A DNA stretch of 62,754 nucleotides from positions 1 through 62,754 of the IMG/VR virus record IMGVR_UViG_3300027797_000029, one strand, 5' to 3'. The notes beneath the pieces were generated by a model. That model was not told where the DNA came from and did no database searches. It saw only the letters and a list, made by a program, of their open reading frames with translations. Shown in pieces: positions 36,909 through 59,379 of this stretch. The translations under genes and the position numbers were made by a program. The DNA is from a virus. Each line of letters begins with the position of its first letter. The stretch's first letter is position 1.

Positions 36909-37859
36909 ATGAGTTCAAGACCCAAAGCATTTTTTATCAACGGCGGCGCTGGCCGAGTTATATGTGCAGTTCCTGCATTGGAAAAATATGCAGAAGATCA
37001 TCCAGATGAAAAATTTTTAATAGTGTGTGAAGGCGGCACTGACTTCTTCAAAGCACACCCCAAACTTCATAATCGTGTGTACGATAATTGGCACAAAAAT
37101 CTATTCCACGATAAATTAATTGATATGGATTTGGTAACACCAGAACCGTATAGAGTTTGGGAATATTTCAACCAAAAATGTTCTCTTAGTCAAGCATTTG
37201 ATATTGAAATCAATAACAACGGTGTTAGAGATTTGCCCAGGCCCACACTAAAGTTAACACAAGACGAAATTACCAACGGCAAATTTGGCATAAAAGATGT
37301 AATTTCAAAGACTGGTAAATCTAAAACAATAGTATTCCAGCCGTTTGGCCGCGGCGTAAACATGAAAGGCGATATTGTAACAGACCCATCTGGCCGCAGC
37401 TTTGAATTGGGTAATGTTGTAAATATTATTAATAAGTTACAAAAAGATTTTTCAGTTATTGTTATGACTGAATTACCATTGAATTTTCAAACATTGGGCT
37501 GCAAGGAGCAAGTTGCAGTGCCCGCCAACATTCCTATTCGTCAGTGGGCTGGCATTATTAAAAATGCAGATGTAATACTATCATGCGACAGTGTTTCTCA
37601 ACACATTGCATATGCGCTGAATAAACCAGCTGTAACTGTGGTGGGATCGACATTTCCTATCAATGTATCATATCCTGCTTGTGAAAATATCCGAGTGTTG
37701 GATATGGGGGAAGGAGCTAGAATTTACAGCCCTATACGGATAACTGCAGACGAGTATGCAGACATGAATAATGATGGAATTATGGCAATGAATGATAAAG
37801 TTGAAAACGCTATTGTGGAATCAGTATTCGAGATGTATGATAACTTTGTAAAACAATAA
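36909..37859 (+). CDS. Glycosyltransferase family 9-like (GT-B) protein
   Basis: A 316-residue protein. INGGAGRVICAVPALEKYAE at the N-terminus has the Gly-rich loop and following helix seen in heptosyltransferase-like GT-B enzymes. The C-terminal nucleotide-binding side shows WAGIIKNADVILSCDSVSQH and ALNKPAVTVVGST, the family's best-kept part. The acceptor could be a surface sugar or a modified base; it cannot be read from sequence. First gene behind a consensus promoter and 14 bases upstream of the carbamoyltransferase. Confidence 0.78.
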   Translation: MSSRPKAFFINGGAGRVICAVPALEKYAEDHPDEKFLIVCEGGTDFFKAHPKLHNRVYDNWHKNLFHDKLIDMDLVTPEPYRVWEYFNQKCSLSQAFDIEINNNGVRDLPRPTLKLTQDEITNGKFGIKDVISKTGKSKTIVFQPFGRGVNMKGDIVTDPSGRSFELGNVVNIINKLQKDFSVIVMTELPLNFQTLGCKEQVAVPANIPIRQWAGIIKNADVILSCDSVSQHIAYALNKPAVTVVGSTFPINVSYPACENIRVLDMGEGARIYSPIRITADEYADMNNDGIMAMNDKVENAIVESVFEMYDNFVKQ

Positions 37860-37873
37860 AGGAAAACTAAAAT

Positions 37874-39676
37874 ATGTCAGAAAATAAAAAAAATATTTGG
37901 GTAGCGGGGATAACACGTGGCCATAATGCCGGAGTTTGTTTACTGAAAGACGGAGAAATTGTGTTCAGCATTGAAGAGGAGCGACTTACCCGTCAAAAAT
38001 ACGACGGGGGCCCATTGGCAACCATGCTTAAAATACTTGACTACACACCCAAATTAGACTACCTTGTTATTGCACATACTACTCCTAAAGAAACTGCTGG
38101 TAAAATTGACTTTACTGGTGACGATATGTACACTGGTTTTGCTCGTAAATTGGGATTGATTGATAGAAAAGCGGACAAGTGGAAGCATCCTCAAGTTATT
38201 GATCTCAGCCACATACATCACAAGTTACATGCAGCTTGTGCATTTTATCGATCAGGCTTCGAAGAAGCAGTTTCTGTAATTGTGGACGGCGCTGGCACAT
38301 TTTTAGAACTGGAGTTTCAAGGAGAAAAATTAACCGGCTGGGAAACTGAAAGTATTTTTGATTGTGCATACCCTGCAAATTTTACAACACTATACAAACA
38401 TATTGGAATTAGAGAACCCAAACCGGGCGCAATTATTAAGAATTTCTCTGGAGATCGATATAACGAAAAAACAACTCACGAAGCCAGAATTGGAGATTAT
38501 GCTGGAATTGTTAAAGTTTATGAAGCTGTAACAGAGTATTGTGGATTTAGTGCTATTGAAGCTGGAAAAACTATGGGATTGTTTCCTTACGGAAAACTCA
38601 ACAATGGTATTCCGCCGTTATTCGATACCACAGGGACCCATCCAAACTCTAATCGAAATTTAGTTATTCCGAGATATCCAAATGGTGCAATCATCAACCA
38701 TAGCTTATATAGTTTCTTGGATGAACATAACTCAAATGATCTCTCTGAACTGGAAAATCGTCGTGACCTTGCATACGCATGCCAAACACAGACACAAGAA
38801 CAGGTGTTACAATTAATTTTTAAAGCAGTTGAAATGTCTGGAAAAAATAATGTAGTGTTAAGTGGTGGATATGGACTTAACTGTGTGGCTAATTATTTTT
38901 ACCTTGACAAATTAAAAGAAAAAGGTATAAATTTATATGTAGAACCTATCAGCAATGATGCTGGAACTGCAATGGGAGCAGCTATGATGATATATCGATC
39001 TGCAGTTAACGATTCTACTATTACTAAATTCAAAGATAATTTATATCTGGGATTACATAAGACGTATACCGACGACGATATCGAATTAACTTGTGCATTA
39101 TTTGATAATGCCGAATTTATAAATGCAACACATAAAGATGTTGTTGATTTATTACGCAATAAAAATATTGTGGCCGTATTCCAAGGACGCAGTGAAAACG
39201 GGCCCAGAGCGTTGGGCAATCGTAGTATTTTATTTGATCCTACAGTGTTGGATGGCAAAGATTTTGTCAATAGTGTAAAACATCGAGAATATTTTAGACC
39301 GTTTGCTGGAACAATCCTTAAAGAACATGCGCACGATTGGTTTGATTTGCGAGGCATGGAAGAAAGTCCCAGTATGATGTATGCTGTTAATTGTCAACCC
39401 GGAATTGCTGAAAAAATACCCAGTATTATTCACGTAGATGGCACTTGCCGTATACAAACAGTTACTGCAGAACAAAATAAACATTTTTATGATTTAATTA
39501 GTGAATTTTACAAAGAATCAGGAGTACCAATTTTGTTTAATACCAGTTTTAACTTGGGCGGAGACCCGTTGGTTGAAACATTAGAAGACGCATTAGACAC
39601 ACTTGCAAGAAGCGAAATTGAATACTTGTATCTACCAGAAAATAAAAAATTAATTAGAATTCTTAATCAAGAATAA
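37874..39676 (+). CDS. Carbamoyltransferase, NodU/CmcH/TobZ family
   Basis: A 600-residue, full-length two-domain enzyme. The N-terminal Kae1-like domain starts IWVAGITRGHNAGVCLLKDG with SIEEERLTRQKYDGG; HIHHKLHAACAFY provides metal-binding His, and VVDGAGTFLEL follows. The C-terminal YrdC-like domain shows GRSENGPRALGNRSILFDP and YFRPFAGTIL. Such enzymes move a carbamoyl group from carbamoyl phosphate, via carbamoyl-AMP, to a hydroxyl on a sugar, antibiotic or nucleoside. Related phage enzymes are linked to carbamoyloxymethyl-cytosine in DNA. The substrate here is unknown. The gene stops two bases before the first nitrilase gene. Confidence 0.92.
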   Translation: MSENKKNIWVAGITRGHNAGVCLLKDGEIVFSIEEERLTRQKYDGGPLATMLKILDYTPKLDYLVIAHTTPKETAGKIDFTGDDMYTGFARKLGLIDRKADKWKHPQVIDLSHIHHKLHAACAFYRSGFEEAVSVIVDGAGTFLELEFQGEKLTGWETESIFDCAYPANFTTLYKHIGIREPKPGAIIKNFSGDRYNEKTTHEARIGDYAGIVKVYEAVTEYCGFSAIEAGKTMGLFPYGKLNNGIPPLFDTTGTHPNSNRNLVIPRYPNGAIINHSLYSFLDEHNSNDLSELENRRDLAYACQTQTQEQVLQLIFKAVEMSGKNNVVLSGGYGLNCVANYFYLDKLKEKGINLYVEPISNDAGTAMGAAMMIYRSAVNDSTITKFKDNLYLGLHKTYTDDDIELTCALFDNAEFINATHKDVVDLLRNKNIVAVFQGRSENGPRALGNRSILFDPTVLDGKDFVNSVKHREYFRPFAGTILKEHAHDWFDLRGMEESPSMMYAVNCQPGIAEKIPSIIHVDGTCRIQTVTAEQNKHFYDLISEFYKESGVPILFNTSFNLGGDPLVETLEDALDTLARSEIEYLYLPENKKLIRILNQE

Positions 39677-39678
39677 CC

Positions 39679-40518
39679 ATGATAGAAATTTTAAATAAAA
39701 CTATAAGATTTGGTGGAGCACAAATTCCTGTTACCCCCGATATACAAAAAAATATCAAATCTATTAAAAAAGCAATCGATTGGGCTGCAGAAAACAAAGT
39801 GGATTACCTAGTAACTCCTGAGGCATCACTTAGTGGATACTCTACAACTTGGTGTGACAATGTTGCAGTTCTGGCAGATTCTCTTAAAGAGATCGAAGTA
39901 TATGCTGCATTAATGAACGTTGGATTGTGTTTAGGCACACTATGGATAGAATCTGAATATGAAAAAGACAATACGTTAAAAGAAATTAAACGAAATCAAC
40001 TGAGATTTTATACAGCAGACGGAAAGTTTATTGGTGTAATTAACAAAACTGTTACAACTCCTCACGATCAGTTGCTTGGATTGGTAGATAGCGTAAACTT
40101 AACAGGAATATTATTAACTTTTGAAAAAATACATATACCAATAGCAGCATTTATATGTGCTGATTTGTATGGTTTAAATAGCGGCCGTGGCGGACTCCCA
40201 GAACAATTATATGATTCCGGAGCCAAGTTATTTTTACATCCTACCAATGCCGAACGAGGATTAGATCCTTTAAGAGATGAAATAGAAGAAATGTGGATAG
40301 AATCGTGGATTAGACGTGTATCATTTAAGCTACGGCCGATAATTTCTGTAGATAATTCTTGTACAATGACCGGTGAGCATTATGATGGAAAAACCATGAC
40401 TCAAAGCGGAGTATGTGCTGGTGGCGTATGGGTTAATACAGTTCCAAGACTTGGTGAACAATATTTTTATCACGATTTTGTATTAAACGATCTTATTTTA
40501 GAAAGAAATCCTTATTAA
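39679..40518 (+). CDS. Nitrilase-superfamily (CN hydrolase) protein, copy 1
   Basis: A 279-residue protein with the complete Glu-Lys-Cys triad of the nitrilase fold: PEASLSGY (E48), INKTV (K123) and FICADLYG (C160). Family members hydrolyse or form C-N bonds (amides, nitriles, N-carbamoyl groups). The location right after a carbamoyltransferase suggests a carbamoyl- or amide-containing substrate. First of three tandem paralogues; the first ~55 residues are almost identical to copies 2 and 3. Confidence 0.88.
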   Translation: MIEILNKTIRFGGAQIPVTPDIQKNIKSIKKAIDWAAENKVDYLVTPEASLSGYSTTWCDNVAVLADSLKEIEVYAALMNVGLCLGTLWIESEYEKDNTLKEIKRNQLRFYTADGKFIGVINKTVTTPHDQLLGLVDSVNLTGILLTFEKIHIPIAAFICADLYGLNSGRGGLPEQLYDSGAKLFLHPTNAERGLDPLRDEIEEMWIESWIRRVSFKLRPIISVDNSCTMTGEHYDGKTMTQSGVCAGGVWVNTVPRLGEQYFYHDFVLNDLILERNPY

Positions 40519-41514
40519 TTAAAAATAATATGAAAATAATAAAAACTATAAGATTTGGAGTGGCGCAGATTCCTGTCACCCCGTTCCAACAACGAAATAT
40601 TGAAACTATTAAAAAAGCAATCGATTGGGCTGCAGAGAACAAGGTGGATTACCTAGTAACTCCTGAGGCATCACTCAGTGGGTATTCTACAAGCTACTAT
40701 AGAGATTTAGAGTTTTTAAATAGTGGGTTACATGAAATAGAAATGTACGCAATATCAAAAAATGTTGGATTATGTTTGGGCACACTGTGGGTAGAGTATA
40801 ACGAACCAGGACACGAGCAGAAACTTGTAAAAAGAAATCAAATTAGATTTTATACAAAAGAAGGTAGATTTTTAGGTTCGACCAATAAACAAGTATTAAC
40901 TCCTTTGGATTTAGAAATTGGCATTGTAAAAGGAGAAGGGTTAGCAGGAGTCCTCATACCGTTTGAAGATAAAGTTATTCCAGTTGCTGGATTAATTTGT
41001 GCAGATTTATACGGACATTTAAGTAATTATGGTGGTCTTCCACAACAGTATTTCACTATGGGTGCAAAATTACTGATACATTCAACTAATGCAGAACGTG
41101 GTTTAGATAAATTCAAAGATAAACTTGAAGAACAGTGGCTTGAAGCAAACATAACTCGAATTTCATATTTGTTATTTCCAGTAATTTCCGCAGATAATTC
41201 TTACACAATGTCCGGAGAGCCTTATACCGGAAAAACTATAACTCAGAGTGGATTTTGCATTGGTGGTAAATGGGTTAATAAAGTTCCAAGAACAGGTACC
41301 CAATATTCGTATCATGATTTTGATATTAAAAAAATAGCAATAGACTTAGCTGATCTTCCTAAATCCAAATTATCATGAAAAATACCATAAGATTTGGAGG
41401 TGCGCAGATTCCTGTTACACCTGACATACAACAGAATATCAAAACTATTAAAACAGCAATAGACTGGGCTGCAGAGAACAAGGTGGATTATCTAGTAACT
41501 CCTGAAGCATCACT
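39772..41514 (+). repeat. Near-identical 59-base block in the three nitrilase genes
   Basis: Blocks at 39772-39830, 40617-40675 and 41456-41514 encode AIDWAAENKVDYLVTPEASL. Copies 1 and 2 differ at two of 59 bases and copies 2 and 3 at about four, while downstream parts of the genes are far more diverged. This uneven identity fits gene conversion or strong selection on the block, and offers sites for recombination that could change copy number. Confidence 0.8.
40530..41378 (+). CDS. Nitrilase-superfamily (CN hydrolase) protein, copy 2
   Basis: A 282-residue tandem paralogue. The triad motifs are intact: PEASLSGY, TNKQV and LICADLYG. It differs from copy 1 mostly after residue 60, in loops that line the active site in this fold (GHLSNYGGLPQQY against GLNSGRGGLPEQL). 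It ends four bases into copy 3 (overlap ATGA), implying coupled translation. Three intact copies suggest hetero-oligomers or three related substrates, rather than decay. Confidence 0.88.
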   Translation: MKIIKTIRFGVAQIPVTPFQQRNIETIKKAIDWAAENKVDYLVTPEASLSGYSTSYYRDLEFLNSGLHEIEMYAISKNVGLCLGTLWVEYNEPGHEQKLVKRNQIRFYTKEGRFLGSTNKQVLTPLDLEIGIVKGEGLAGVLIPFEDKVIPVAGLICADLYGHLSNYGGLPQQYFTMGAKLLIHSTNAERGLDKFKDKLEEQWLEANITRISYLLFPVISADNSYTMSGEPYTGKTITQSGFCIGGKWVNKVPRTGTQYSYHDFDIKKIAIDLADLPKSKLS

Positions 41515-42211
41515 GAGTGGATATTATACAACAGACGACGCTTCTATTAAAAGTGTAGCAACTGCAATGTCCACGATAGAAAAATATGCAGCCAGTAAAA
41601 AAATAGGTCTGTGTCTAGGTACAATATGGGACGAAGCAGAAGTTGATAAAACTGTAAGACGTAATCAGATCAGATTTTACAATCGGAAAGGGTTGCTGTG
41701 CGGCGTTACTAATAAAAGGTATGCCATCGAATTTGATCGAACAATCGGTGTAACGGGCGACAACAATGCAACATTGATACCCTTGCCAATTAAAAATAAA
41801 CTTATACCTGTTGGCGGCCTAATATGTATAGATATGTATGTGTCATCACCTGAGGAAATGACCCCAATTTTGAAATTGAATGCGCAAGGCGCAAAATTAA
41901 TAATACACTCAACTAATGCAGCACGTAATGTGTCAGTAAAAAACAAACCTAGTGTAGAACTAGCAGACAAAATAGCTAATGATTGGCACGATATATGTTT
42001 AAGACGTGCGTCGTTTCTAACAAATCTCCCAATTATAACGGTGGATAATTGTTACATGGCTGACGGTACTGAATATCACGGTCCTACATCTAGTGAAAGC
42101 GGTGTGTTAATTAATGGAGAGTGGGTCACTAAAATACCTAGAACTGGAACTCAGTATTTTTACCACGATTTTAACATTGACGAAGTGGCAATTGATTGGC
42201 CAAAAAACTAA
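41375..42211 (+). CDS. Nitrilase-superfamily (CN hydrolase) protein, copy 3
   Basis: A 278-residue, most diverged paralogue. PEASLSGY, TNKRY and LICIDMY keep the triad, but the segment after the nucleophile Cys (IDMYVSSPEEMTPI) differs from copies 1 and 2 and lacks their Gly-Gly-Leu-Pro loop, so substrate choice may differ. The N-terminal ~55 residues remain nearly identical. The gene ends one base from the stop of the converging HAD gene. Confidence 0.87.
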   Translation: MKNTIRFGGAQIPVTPDIQQNIKTIKTAIDWAAENKVDYLVTPEASLSGYYTTDDASIKSVATAMSTIEKYAASKKIGLCLGTIWDEAEVDKTVRRNQIRFYNRKGLLCGVTNKRYAIEFDRTIGVTGDNNATLIPLPIKNKLIPVGGLICIDMYVSSPEEMTPILKLNAQGAKLIIHSTNAARNVSVKNKPSVELADKIANDWHDICLRRASFLTNLPIITVDNCYMADGTEYHGPTSSESGVLINGEWVTKIPRTGTQYFYHDFNIDEVAIDWPKN

Positions 42212-42212
42212 T

Positions 42213-42842
42213 TTAGTTTAAACTGTCAGCAAATGCCATCAAGCTATCAAATACTTGTGTGCGTTTACGCAAGTTTCGATTAGCAAATGTTTCCAACTTC
42301 TTGCTAGTTTCCACCCATTCACCAGACTTGATCAGCACAGGCTTCGATTTGATATTTTCAGCGGCTTTTAAATCACTGATTTTATCACCCACAAACCAGC
42401 CTTCTTTAAATTTAACATTGTGTTCACGCTCTGCTCGATGAAACATACCAATATTAGGTAACGCAAACATATCTTCTTTCATTTTGCTAGTGGAATAATA
42501 CATGGCGTCTATACTAGGGCACCCTGCTGAACCAAACAGTTCCAGCATATGTTGATTAACCACATCCACTTCAGCGGTGGTCAATCTGCCTTCGCTAATG
42601 CCATATTGGTTGGACAGGATTACAATGCGGTAGCCTTTTTTTCGCATCACTGCCACAGCTTCTGCAGCTCCGGGTATAATTTCAAATTCGTCTGGTTTGG
42701 TCACATGGCTGGTTTTTGCATAGTTGATAACACCGTCACGTGAAATACCAATAACTGGTTTTGTAAACTGAGATGAAAAGTTTGGTATTTTTTGTAAAGA
42801 TGCAATATCAACATCTTTGTCTAGTAGGTTTCGTAGGTTCAT
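42213..42842 (-). CDS. HAD-superfamily (GmhB/HAD-IIIA type) protein lacking the nucleophile Asp
   Basis: A 209-residue protein. The HAD motif I, normally DRDGVIN, reads GISRDGVIN: Ser34 replaces the nucleophilic Asp (codon TCA), and the second Asp36 remains. Motif II is RIVILSNQYGISEG and motif IV is GWFVGDKISDLKAA, both as in histidinol/heptose-bisphosphate phosphatases. An intact frame with this change suggests an inactive or regulatory role, or different chemistry. It converges on the nitrilase cassette and has its own promoter (42860-42888). It could belong to nucleotide-sugar metabolism with the GT9-like enzyme, or be a DNA/RNA end-processing relative. Confidence 0.82.
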   Translation of the reverse strand: MNLRNLLDKDVDIASLQKIPNFSSQFTKPVIGISRDGVINYAKTSHVTKPDEFEIIPGAAEAVAVMRKKGYRIVILSNQYGISEGRLTTAEVDVVNQHMLELFGSAGCPSIDAMYYSTSKMKEDMFALPNIGMFHRAEREHNVKFKEGWFVGDKISDLKAAENIKSKPVLIKSGEWVETSKKLETFANRNLRKRTQVFDSLMAFADSLN

Positions 42843-55545: not shown

Positions 55546-58500
55546 ATGGCACAACTAAGTTCACCAGGCGTTAGCGTAAGCGTAATAGACGAAAGTTTTT
55601 ATACACCGGCAGCACCTGGCACCGTACCCTTAATAATTATAGCGTCTGAACAAGACAAATTAAATGCTGCCGGAACTGGTATTGCTCCAGGTACTACAGC
55701 AGCAAATGCTGGCAAAGTTTGGTTGCTCACAAGTCAGATGGATCTTGGAAATACATTTGGTATTCCTTACTTTCAAACTGATGCAGAAGGCAATCCAGTT
55801 AATGCTGGCGAACTTAACGAATATGGATTGCAAGCAGCTTACAGTTTCTTGGGTGTGAGCAATCGTGCTTATGTGGTACGTGCAAATGTGGATACAAAAC
55901 AACTGATCGGTACAACAAACAGCCCATCAGGCGAGCCAGCAGACGGAACTGTTTGGTTGGATACCGCAGAAAGCAAGTTTGGTATTTTTGAGTGGAATGC
56001 CAATTCTGCCACAACTACCGGCGGCCAAACATTCACATCACAAGCAGTGACAGTTATCACCAACACAAGTTTGTTGATAGGTGGCACAGCAGGTAATGCA
56101 CCATTGGCCAGCTTTGGTACAACTGGTACATATGCTCTAGTGGCAACTTCCACACTGAACAAATTATACTACAAGAAAGGCGCCACAGACGGTGTATTGG
56201 CCGCTGGCACTTGGGTTGCAGTTGGATCACAACAATGGACAGCTAGCCGCCCAACAGCTATCAGCACAGTAGCTAGCCCAGTGCTAACAGCCACTGGTGT
56301 TTCAGCAGCCAGTGCTATTATTGGTGACGGCGCAGCTGTTGCTGGCAGTGGTGTGATAATGACAGTGAATGGCACTGTTTCAGGCGGCACTTTGGCTGTG
56401 GGACAAGTGTTGTCTGGCGGCACAATTGTTGCTGGTACAGAAATCACAGCAGTCAACACAGTGACCATTACAGCTACCATCACCACAACAACATTGACAG
56501 TTAGTGCAGTATCAAATGGCACAATTACAGTTGGTATGGCATTGAGTGGCGGTTCAGTTACTGCTGGCACTTACATTGTTGCGTTTGTGTCAGGCACAAA
56601 CGGCGGCCAGGGCGTGTACACATTGAATCAAAGTGCATCAGGTTCACCAACAACAGGTACAAGTTACACAGTTAGTACAAGCCAATTGGTAGCAACCACA
56701 ACAGTTACTACTGGTGGCAGTGTACTGACTATCAGCAACGGCACCAGCACAGTTAATGTGTCGGGTGTTGCCACAGTGGCAGCATTGGCCGCAGCCATTA
56801 ACGGCGGTGGCGGTGTATTGTTTGGTGTTACCGCAGGAGCTGCTGGCAATATATTAAACATCTATTCAACAGGTGCAAGTGTAACACTAAGTGGCACAGC
56901 TGCAACCGCATTGGGATTCTCAACAAGTCCTTATTTGGCTCCTACGTTTTCAGCAAGCCAGCACTACAATGTTCCAACATTTGGTACTGCAGACAACACA
57001 AGCACAGCCAACGGTTATCCCACAGGCAGTGTGTGGTGCAAAACTACAAATGTCAACAATGGTGCAAACTGGGTGCTTAAACAATACAGTACAGACACAT
57101 CTGCTTGGGTCTTGAAGCCAGTTAGTTTGTTGCCAAATAACGGAACAGCGTTGGCAACATTGGATCCAACTGGCGGCGGTATTAATCTTTCAGCCAGTGC
57201 TGCATATGTGAAATTCAATGATGGTGGGTTTACTACCAACAGTTTGGCAGATTTCAAAATTTATTATCGCACAGCAGCCGGCGTAACAAAAATTACAAGT
57301 AGTCCAGTTGGCAACAGCACATTTACAAATGCTGCCGCGTATAGTTTCACAATTTCAGAAACTTCGTTAACACCTGGCACTGTTGATGCTGACGGTTACG
57401 CCAGCTACTTGACAACACCAGTGACTGTGGCATTTACCGGTACTGGAAATAGTCAATCAGATGCAAACAATTTGGTTGCAGCATTGCAAGCAGCATTGGT
57501 TGGCAGTGTGGTATCTGCAGAAGTTAACAGTGATTTTTCAATCACTATCACTCACCAACGCGGCGGTGACATTGTGTTTGTGGACGGTTCAGGAGCAGCT
57601 GCCACACTAAGCAAGTTGTTCACAGCTGGTTCGACACTGAACTATTATTCAAATCCGTCTGGCATAGGTACAATGGCGTCATTATGGGGCACAATGGTTG
57701 GTAATTCAGCATATGCTACACCAAGTGCAACTCCACTGACCACAACTCCTTTAGACGGTGCATTGTGGTATGACAGCTACCTAAATGATGTGGACATCAT
57801 GGTGTGCAATGGTTCACGCTGGGTAGGCTATCGCAGTGTAGATACCACAGTGGGTAGTGCTGTTATCAAAGGCGGCAAATCAATTAATAATCCATTCGGC
57901 ACACAGGGTGATACAGATCCTAACGGTCCTATCATTAGCGCAAGTATGCCTAAAACACAAAGTACTGGCACAACATTGGCCAACGGTGATTTGTGGATCT
58001 ACACAGGCGACACTGAAAATTATCCTATCATTTACAAGTGGGATTTTGCAAACAAGAAGTGGGTATTGATTGACAACACAGATCAAGTGACCAGTGCTGG
58101 TATTGTGTTCGGTGATGCACGTTGGAGTGATCAAAGCACCAACGGTAACTTGGGTTCACCATTTGAAGGCACCGGCGCTCCTGACACAATCGTCAGTTTG
58201 CTTGCCAGTAACTTCTTAGATGGTGATGCTCCAGATCCTGCATTGTATCCAAAAGGAACATTGTTATGGAACACACGCCGTAGTGGTTACAATGTTAAGA
58301 GATATGAAGTTGGATATGTTGACACAACAGAACAAAATCCACGCATGGGCAATGCTGCACAAACTTACTATTATCCAGATCGTTGGGTAACAGCAGCTCC
58401 AAATGACACATTTGGTGTTGGACAATTTGGCCGCAAAGCACAACGTGCTGTGGTGTTGCAAGCGATTCAAGCCACAATACAAAGCAATCAAGGCATTCGT

Positions 58501-59379
58501 CAACCTGACACAGTTATCTATAACTTGTTGGCTTGCCCAGGCTATTTAGAAGCAGCCAGCGCACTTAATGGTTTGAATGCAGACAACGGCTTATCAGCAT
58601 TTATCGTATTAGACACACCAGCCCGCTTGACACCAGATGCTACAAGTTTAAGCAACTGGGGTAACAACGCTGCCGGCGCAGCTATCGATGGCGACGTGGG
58701 ATTGATTGCAACTAGTCCGTACAGTGCTGTTTACTATCCGTGGGGATACACAACTGACTTGAACGGACGCAATATTGTTGTTCCCCCAAGTCACATCATG
58801 TTGCGTACAATTGCGCTGAGCGACAATGTTTCTTATCCATGGTTTGCACCAGCTGGTGTACGTCGTGGTGGCGTATCAAACGCAAGCAGCGTTGGTTATG
58901 TCACAAGCGATTCAGGCGAATTTGTTACAGTGGCATTGAATCAAGGTCAACGCGACACAATGGCCGGCATTCATGTTAATCCAATCACATATCTTGCTGG
59001 AACAGGATTAGTGGTTTACGGACAGAAAACACGTCAACTAGTGGCCAGCAGCTTGGATCGTATCAATGTGGCTCGTTTGGTGATTTATCTACGTTATCAA
59101 TTGAACGTTATTGCTAAACCATATATCTTTGAACCAAACGATACTATCACACGTAACCAAATCAAACAACAGATTGAAAAACTATTGCTTGAGTTAGTTG
59201 GACAACGAGCATTGTATGATTTCTTAGTAGTGTGCGATAATTCAAACAACACACCGTCTAGAATTGATGCAAACGAACTACACGTCGACATAGCCATTGA
59301 GCCAGTAAAAGCTGTGGAATTTATTTACATTCCGTTGCGTTTAGAAAATACTGGCGGCATCGCAGGCTTGAGCACATAA
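55546..59379 (+). CDS. 18: Tail sheath protein gp18, unusually long
   Basis: Contractile sheath subunit of 1277 residues, nearly twice T4 gp18 (659). The N-terminus (SSPGVSVSVIDESFYTPAAPGTVPL) and the C-terminal conserved domain (PRMGNAAQTYYYPDRW, FGRKAQRAVVLQAI, NILLRYQ-like LVIYLRYQLNVIA, ...LDEAIEP-like DIAIEPVKAVEFIYIP) are clear. Between them lie sheath outer modules (GTVWLDTAESKFGIFEWN, GALWYDSYLNDVDIM) and extra Thr/Gly/Val-rich beta modules at about 250-470. One of these (GMALSGGSVTAG...GGQGVYTLNQSASG) resembles the insertion in repeat eight of the 2055-residue fibre. The outer domains probably project from the tail. Confidence 0.92.
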   Translation: MAQLSSPGVSVSVIDESFYTPAAPGTVPLIIIASEQDKLNAAGTGIAPGTTAANAGKVWLLTSQMDLGNTFGIPYFQTDAEGNPVNAGELNEYGLQAAYSFLGVSNRAYVVRANVDTKQLIGTTNSPSGEPADGTVWLDTAESKFGIFEWNANSATTTGGQTFTSQAVTVITNTSLLIGGTAGNAPLASFGTTGTYALVATSTLNKLYYKKGATDGVLAAGTWVAVGSQQWTASRPTAISTVASPVLTATGVSAASAIIGDGAAVAGSGVIMTVNGTVSGGTLAVGQVLSGGTIVAGTEITAVNTVTITATITTTTLTVSAVSNGTITVGMALSGGSVTAGTYIVAFVSGTNGGQGVYTLNQSASGSPTTGTSYTVSTSQLVATTTVTTGGSVLTISNGTSTVNVSGVATVAALAAAINGGGGVLFGVTAGAAGNILNIYSTGASVTLSGTAATALGFSTSPYLAPTFSASQHYNVPTFGTADNTSTANGYPTGSVWCKTTNVNNGANWVLKQYSTDTSAWVLKPVSLLPNNGTALATLDPTGGGINLSASAAYVKFNDGGFTTNSLADFKIYYRTAAGVTKITSSPVGNSTFTNAAAYSFTISETSLTPGTVDADGYASYLTTPVTVAFTGTGNSQSDANNLVAALQAALVGSVVSAEVNSDFSITITHQRGGDIVFVDGSGAAATLSKLFTAGSTLNYYSNPSGIGTMASLWGTMVGNSAYATPSATPLTTTPLDGALWYDSYLNDVDIMVCNGSRWVGYRSVDTTVGSAVIKGGKSINNPFGTQGDTDPNGPIISASMPKTQSTGTTLANGDLWIYTGDTENYPIIYKWDFANKKWVLIDNTDQVTSAGIVFGDARWSDQSTNGNLGSPFEGTGAPDTIVSLLASNFLDGDAPDPALYPKGTLLWNTRRSGYNVKRYEVGYVDTTEQNPRMGNAAQTYYYPDRWVTAAPNDTFGVGQFGRKAQRAVVLQAIQATIQSNQGIRQPDTVIYNLLACPGYLEAASALNGLNADNGLSAFIVLDTPARLTPDATSLSNWGNNAAGAAIDGDVGLIATSPYSAVYYPWGYTTDLNGRNIVVPPSHIMLRTIALSDNVSYPWFAPAGVRRGGVSNASSVGYVTSDSGEFVTVALNQGQRDTMAGIHVNPITYLAGTGLVVYGQKTRQLVASSLDRINVARLVIYLRYQLNVIAKPYIFEPNDTITRNQIKQQIEKLLLELVGQRALYDFLVVCDNSNNTPSRIDANELHVDIAIEPVKAVEFIYIPLRLENTGGIAGLST

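Follow-up and report, generated by a model that had tools for sequence, protein, structure and literature searches.

A mosaic history in a tandem array of three phage nitrilase-superfamily genes, consistent with gene conversion of their 5' part

An array of three phage genes, each predicted to encode a catalytically competent hydrolase of the nitrilase fold, has probably undergone conversion of its 5' part, in the genomic setting considered below. In the window (the whole stretch of DNA analysed, a virus record of 62,754 bases), these genes carry a by-phage history in their first fifth and a by-type history in the remainder, and such a mosaic is a textbook signature of paralogue conversion. 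The gene-conversion reading is well supported for this array. The event is of an ordinary, known kind, unusually clear here in a phage enzyme family, where it yields a clean and quantified mosaic; whole-gene family trees of such phage enzymes would mislead. The array also draws notice to a sizeable unnamed family of phage C-N hydrolases in which tandem copies occur and the catalytic residues do not vary.

The array and its 5' tract

The interval from 39679, the first base of the N1 ATG, to 42211, the final base of the N3 stop codon, spans exactly three complete tandem genes, the ATG of N3 overlapping the stop of N2. The sequence-only reading had recognised triplicated nitrilase genes in precisely this interval, and PF00795 (CN_hydrolase) scores above the Pfam cut-off in all three. 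The array comprises the following features, the tracts in N2 and N3 being delimited by the alignment columns of N1 codons 8–56.

39679..40518, + strand: N1, nitrilase-superfamily (CN hydrolase) gene, beta type, 279 aa; candidate triad E48, K123, C160
39700..39846, + strand: 5' homogenised tract in N1 (codons 8–56)
40530..41378, + strand: N2, nitrilase-superfamily gene, beta type, 282 aa; candidate triad E46, K120, C157
40545..40691, + strand: 5' homogenised tract in N2
41375..42211, + strand: N3, nitrilase-superfamily gene, alpha type, 278 aa; candidate triad E44, K114, C151
41384..41530, + strand: 5' homogenised tract in N3

A second contig (L004) carries N1, N2 and N3 at 100% protein identity and a third (L005) carries N2, truncated by the contig end, and N3, likewise at 100%; thus, the array is no assembly accident of a single record. 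By its gp20, gp21 and gp23 relatives the virus is a T4-like phage, with a gp23 that is 68–73% identical to those of jumbo phages, e.g., Sinorhizobium phage Phosso and the PA5oct group. Two other genes of the window are of note in their own right. The tail sheath gene (55546–59379) encodes 1277 residues and exceeds the matched sheath families, whose PHROG profiles have 915, 496 and 962 positions, and positions 61729–62157 encode a TnsA-like endonuclease N-terminal domain as a stand-alone protein of 142 residues.

Pairwise, the N1, N2 and N3 proteins are 49–59% identical over their full length, reaching 86–92% at codons 8–56 and falling to 39–52% outside the 5' tract. The description of the first ~55 codons as near identical between copies, given by the sequence-only reading, is too strong as it was put; it holds for a core at about codons 28–51, around which weaker likeness spans codon 8 to about codon 58. 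Over alignment columns 1–60, the base differences amount to 34 of 174 sites for N1–N2, 32 of 168 for N1–N3 and 31 of 168 for N2–N3. The near-identical core of N1–N2 covers codons 28–51 (70 nt with at most two mismatches), a length equalled in 0 of 2000 column shuffles; that of N2–N3 covers codons 35–51 (50 nt; 0 of 2000) and that of N1–N3 codons 41–51 (32 nt; 13 of 2000). Two finer details already noted from the letters proved correct: copies 1 and 2 differ at two of 59 bases (39772–39830 against 40617–40675), and copy 3 has CIDMY where they have CADLY.

The position of the tract close to the start codons might point to an RNA- or codon-level constraint near gene starts, such as translation initiation or a regulatory element. 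However, the first codons of N1, N2 and N3 are those that differ most, the common tract starts at codon 7–8 and has its core at codons 28–51, and the orthologues have no such codon conservation, all of which makes this explanation exceedingly improbable.

Synonymous divergence and tree conflict

Analysis of synonymous divergence (pS) revealed that it is uneven along the genes; even divergence, which would argue for protein-level constraint only, was not found. At codons 8–56, pS is 0.50 for N1–N3, 0.38 for N2–N3 and 0.39 for N1–N2, and after codon 57 the respective values are 0.76, 0.79 and 0.62. Orthologues under the same protein constraint served as the control, taken from contigs L017, L018 and L019 (two copies each), whose arrays adjoin the same carbamoyltransferase gene as the window array. 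Nine orthologue pairs were compared, counting how often an amino acid common to both members is written with the same codon. Within the window array this same-codon share is 89/127 (0.70) in the 5' part, versus 150/324 (0.46) among the orthologues, and in the remainder it is 141/279 versus 520/1029, both 0.505. The contrast between the 5' part and the remainder, array versus orthologues, was matched by 26 of 5000 column shuffles, which ignore autocorrelation and are applied to pairs that have sequences in common. In a permutation scan, the nucleotide excess of N1 and N2 versus N3 over the orthologues formed a single segment, codons 7–67 (0 of 5000 shuffles). N1–N2, both of beta type, showed no excess over the orthologues (1530 of 5000 shuffles).

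These controls bear on the explanation by protein-level constraint alone, in which every member keeps the N-terminal core and the likeness of the DNA is a simple consequence. Orthologue pairs, equally constrained, have 5' pS values of 0.58–0.90 without a 5' drop in synonymous divergence, besides their same-codon share of 0.46, and in the conserved C-terminal motif, a second control, N2–N3 retain 64% of residues, yet pS is 0.94. With the orthologues and the C-terminal motif acting as counter-controls, the low 5' pS does not come from protein constraint alone. The explanation can draw on the family-wide conservation of the segment, single-copy relatives included, on single-pair synonymous tests that are modest (Fisher p 0.064, 0.063 and 0.0074) and on runs of identical codons, which taken by themselves are not longer than shuffled (3435, 3443 and 1375 of 5000). 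Given also the parametric bootstrap described below, we regard it as very unlikely.

A common oligomer interface shared by three specificities, the alternative offered by the sequence-only reading, found no support. What the tract encodes is the family-wide N-terminal core (strand 1, helix 1, strand 2 and the catalytic Glu), which is conserved in single-copy relatives as well, and according to the same counter-controls constraint on the protein does not by itself produce the low pS. Dimerisation through the A-surface is described as a feature of the nitrilase superfamily (PMC4700190).

For the trees, we assembled 128 genes, dropping matches below 150 bits, which left 101 after removal of identical proteins; 18 sequences were hand-chosen from these deduplicated genes. 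L004 and L005 (the window's virus) and L015, L016, L028 and L032 (the same contigs as L004–L007) were dropped. In the 3' DNA tree, N3 forms an alpha clade with L017_6147, L018_7831 and L019_7837 (support 97/96), and N1 and N2 form a beta clade with L017_7001, L018_6986 and L019_7004 (support 99/97). A clade of the window copies is rejected by the 3' part with both DNA (AU 1.6e-5) and protein (AU 3.2e-8). The 3' trees thus show that the alpha and beta lineages are old, predating the split of the related phages.

In contrast, N1, N2 and N3 form a single clade in the 5' DNA tree (codons 8–56; support 81/85); alpha is rejected there (AU 0.027), whereas beta is not (AU 0.075). With 5' protein data alpha is rejected as well (AU 0.011), but the tree does not on its own bring the window copies together (cost 2.75, AU 0.157). 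Constraining the 5' DNA to the alpha and beta types costs 27.4 lnL, a value reached in 0 of 100 simulations of a parametric bootstrap on the type-constrained tree (maximum 7.86). Along fourteen 49-codon windows of the gene, the by-type cost drops from 29.1 to 0–3 and the cost of uniting the window copies climbs from 0 to 7.5–28.3, the switch from by phage to by type occurring after the window starting at codon 57 and before the one starting at codon 81. The separate phylogenies of the two parts therefore conflict as conversion predicts, by phage versus by type. Gene conversion of the 5' part, as proposed from the letters, is supported by this conflict between the tract and the remainder of the gene together with the uneven pS, which in the tract is reduced relative to orthologues, modestly so per pair.

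These results enable us to propose a putative history of the array. Two paralogue lineages, alpha (N3) and beta (N1 and N2), were already present in the ancestor of the related phages, as the 3' trees show. Later, in the window lineage, about 150–180 bp at the 5' ends would have been homogenised by ectopic recombination between the tandem copies. The homogenisation itself is shown by the comparisons above; as its route we infer gene conversion, or else crossovers within the same block. Crossovers in the common block could also vary copy order, and the two routes are thus not separable here. Purifying selection on the N-terminal core presumably keeps DNA identity sufficient for homologous recombination, and the bodies may be too diverged for it, which would confine exchange to the 5' block.

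The same mosaic is predicted by a reverse history, namely triplication with common 5' ends followed by import of the 3' bodies from other phages, or by their shuffling through 5'-block crossovers. Body order indeed varies although the flanking carbamoyltransferase and HAD phosphatase genes are the same, being alpha-beta in L017 (6147–7849), beta-alpha in L018 (6986–8679) and beta-beta-alpha in the window. However, several imports of about 650 bp would be needed, as against the short exchanges of the preferred reading, and the N1 and N2 bodies are sisters (99/97); we therefore judge the reverse history unlikely. A bolder proposal, to which we give slightly less credence still, is that the conserved 5' block, which selection for the catalytic core would keep alike in all copies, acts as a recombination joint, behind which phage recombination would repeatedly swap, reorder, add and delete divergent bodies. 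If true, such a joint would amount to self-maintaining diversification of a phage amidase set between fixed flanking genes, and the diversified amidases would possibly be aimed at changing host glycans or at nitrilase-based defences such as DRT1.

Gene conversion, the reading that we prefer, had been coupled in the sequence-only reading with diversification of the substrate-binding part. That part of the claim holds only partly, in that there are two old lineages with a lineage-specific residue after the nucleophile. On the other hand, pN is below pS throughout the genes, synonymous sites are near saturation and positive selection is not demonstrable.

Interlocus conversion of paralogues is reported for yeast histones (PMC4700949) and Tigriopus GOT1 (PMC3728101). 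The present case resembles such conversion in that same-genome copies are closer than orthologues over one stretch, with orthology elsewhere; it differs in concerning a phage array, in a tract limited to the 5' fifth and in the low identity of the rest (39–52%). Among titles and abstract openings of the open-licence literature on phage or cyanophage nitrilases and on conversion between tandem phage copies, neither the family nor such an array was found.

Predicted enzymes and genomic setting

In an alignment of 63 proteins (64 selected from 91 allowed, with one short fragment omitted), the E, K and C residues are invariant in 63/63, and a fourth acidic position, which we take to be the second Glu of the nitrilase superfamily, is D or E in 61/63. 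Given this invariance, all copies, N1, N2 and N3 among them, probably function as active C-N hydrolases. Structures modelled with AlphaFold2 for N2 and N3 (mean pLDDT 94.5 and 92.9) have the alpha-beta-beta-alpha fold, with best PDB Z scores of 29.5 and 29.3, respectively. Superfamily amidases, carbamoylases and NAD-synthetase glutaminase domains match about equally well (Z about 26–29.5), and so the fold does not name the substrate. The structures of NitN amidase (4izv/5jqn), D-carbamoylase (6lei) and the NAD synthetase glutaminase domain (3ilv/5kha) have this fold and the E-K-C residues in common with the N2 and N3 models (Z 26.6–29.5, rmsd 2.2–2.9 over 223–253 residues), and are only 15–19% identical to the phage proteins. 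Sequence likeness to solved structures is weak; it is best for NAD synthetases, followed faintly by D-carbamoylases and Nit2. In contrast to glutamine-dependent NAD synthetase, the phage proteins, at 278–282 aa, have no synthetase domain. No NCBIfam equivalog scored above its cut-off for N1, N2 or N3. The predicted reaction is, most likely, hydrolysis of an amide or carbamoyl group carried by a small molecule or a glycan.

Directly after the nucleophile Cys, 54 of the 63 proteins have Asn. Within the window's clade of nine genes this residue is Ala in 5/5 beta and Ile or Val in 4/4 alpha members, a lineage-specific pattern that would fit a functional split of the two types.

We also considered a glutamine amidotransferase, composed of a nitrilase and a NadE-like partner, a reading prompted by Synechococcus phage Sf-FS3. 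It was rejected as a general account, with NadE (PF02540) detected in 1 of 37 records, mostly fragments, and absent in the 36 records other than Sf-FS3; the same search was positive in 14/14 control genomes. In Sf-FS3 itself (L009, 7229–10861), the only nitrilase relative is part of a sugar cluster that also contains an NH3-dependent NAD-synthetase-like gene and a UDP-glucose dehydrogenase. Such a cluster would fit a split amidotransferase with a uronic acid as its substrate.

The genes that flank the array suggest a heptose/carbamoyl glycan module.

36909..37859, + strand: GT9 (heptosyltransferase)-like gene (PF01075 2.5e-6; phrog_8954 2.1e-150)
37874..39676, + strand: NodU/Nol-type carbamoyltransferase, directly upstream of the array (PF16861 1.1e-56, PF02543 2.6e-26; phrog_1601)
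42213..42842, − strand: HAD-IIIA phosphatase, GmhB (heptose bisphosphatase)-like, directly downstream (TIGR01662 above cut-off)

The phosphatase also matches the PRK08942 model at 1.1e-33, under that model's 178-bit cut-off. Large virion- or fibre-like genes flank the module, encoding a 2055-residue protein with CBM_5_12 and a YHYH protein that matches virion structural families. In the cyanophages S-CAM1, S-SSM7 and P-SSM2, the carbamoyltransferase is found among tail-fibre genes, in regions with genes annotated as heptose kinase/adenylyltransferase (HldE), phosphoheptose isomerase (GmhA) and sugar epimerase, and in S-CAM1 and S-SSM7 a GT9-like relative immediately precedes it. As an observation apart from the nitrilases, the GT9-like and carbamoyltransferase genes thus recur as a heptose/carbamoyl module among tail-fibre genes (window 36909–39676 and 42213–42842; L175, L176 and L177).

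The likeliest setting, which we put forward tentatively and with considerable doubt, may be a carbamoyl-heptose-type decoration of tail fibres or of a host surface sugar. Within such a module, it would be a fair guess that the nitrilases trim or edit the amide or carbamoyl group. The P-SSM2 nitrilase pair counts against this setting, for it sits between a 2OG-Fe(II) oxygenase gene and the gp59/gp32 genes rather than beside the carbamoyltransferase, indicating that the functional setting is not conserved. The pair (Q58N00 and its neighbour gene) belongs to the same phage family (BFVD match, 35% identity) and is likewise tandem, without clear 5' conversion; phrog_36475 belongs to that family too, matching N3 at 3.9e-48.

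PF16861 is present in 17 of the 37 records. Co-occurrence as such says little about a link to the carbamoyltransferase, since phage records matching the window number 141 for its carbamoyltransferase but only 9 for its nitrilase. A defence reading was discarded, with a PADLOC match in 0 of 6 proteins. The antiphage reverse transcriptase DRT1 has a nitrilase domain (PMC13275509), which offers, as a lead only, a likeness in a superfamily domain active in phage-host conflict. DRT1 is, however, a host defence protein with an RT domain (PMC13275509), whereas the phage genes are free-standing and lack a PADLOC match.

Recurrence in related phages

One scan of viral contigs gave 170 matching stretches for the nitrilase family. 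Among the 37 records, mostly fragments, three copies occur in 2 (one of them the same virus as the window), two copies in 9 and one copy in 26. Tandem copies are frequent in the family, and three genes in a row were seen at 12 of the 88 loci listed, a count that is not dereplicated and includes both the window and its twin L004.

All within-array pairs were examined for 5' conversion across the family, and most arrays showed no such pattern; its recurrence is suggestive only. The arrays and controls for further shuffle and tree tests were hand-picked. L019 has a similar 5' tract by the shuffle test (18/5000), the synonymous same-codon test being not significant (524/5000), and L059 has one as well (1/5000) but lacks close orthologues. 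L018 shows no pattern over the whole gene (1393/5000 shuffles) and a synonymous patch at codons 32–47 (37/5000; same-codon test 107/5000), and L017 shows no pattern in either test (2412/5000 and 1509/5000, respectively). For L042, 5' conversion was rejected, as the array passed the shuffle test (0/5000) but failed the tree test, in which uniting the copies costs 5.9 and grouping by type 2.4. L056 (0/5000), L070 (18/5000) and L041 (73/5000) have tracts at the 3' end instead.

The two best hits in the genome collection, L095 and L096, are labelled as Rickettsiales and Neomarinimicrobiota MAGs. Both are probably phage contigs binned into these MAGs, because their identity and positions equal those of the viral contigs L030 and L032.
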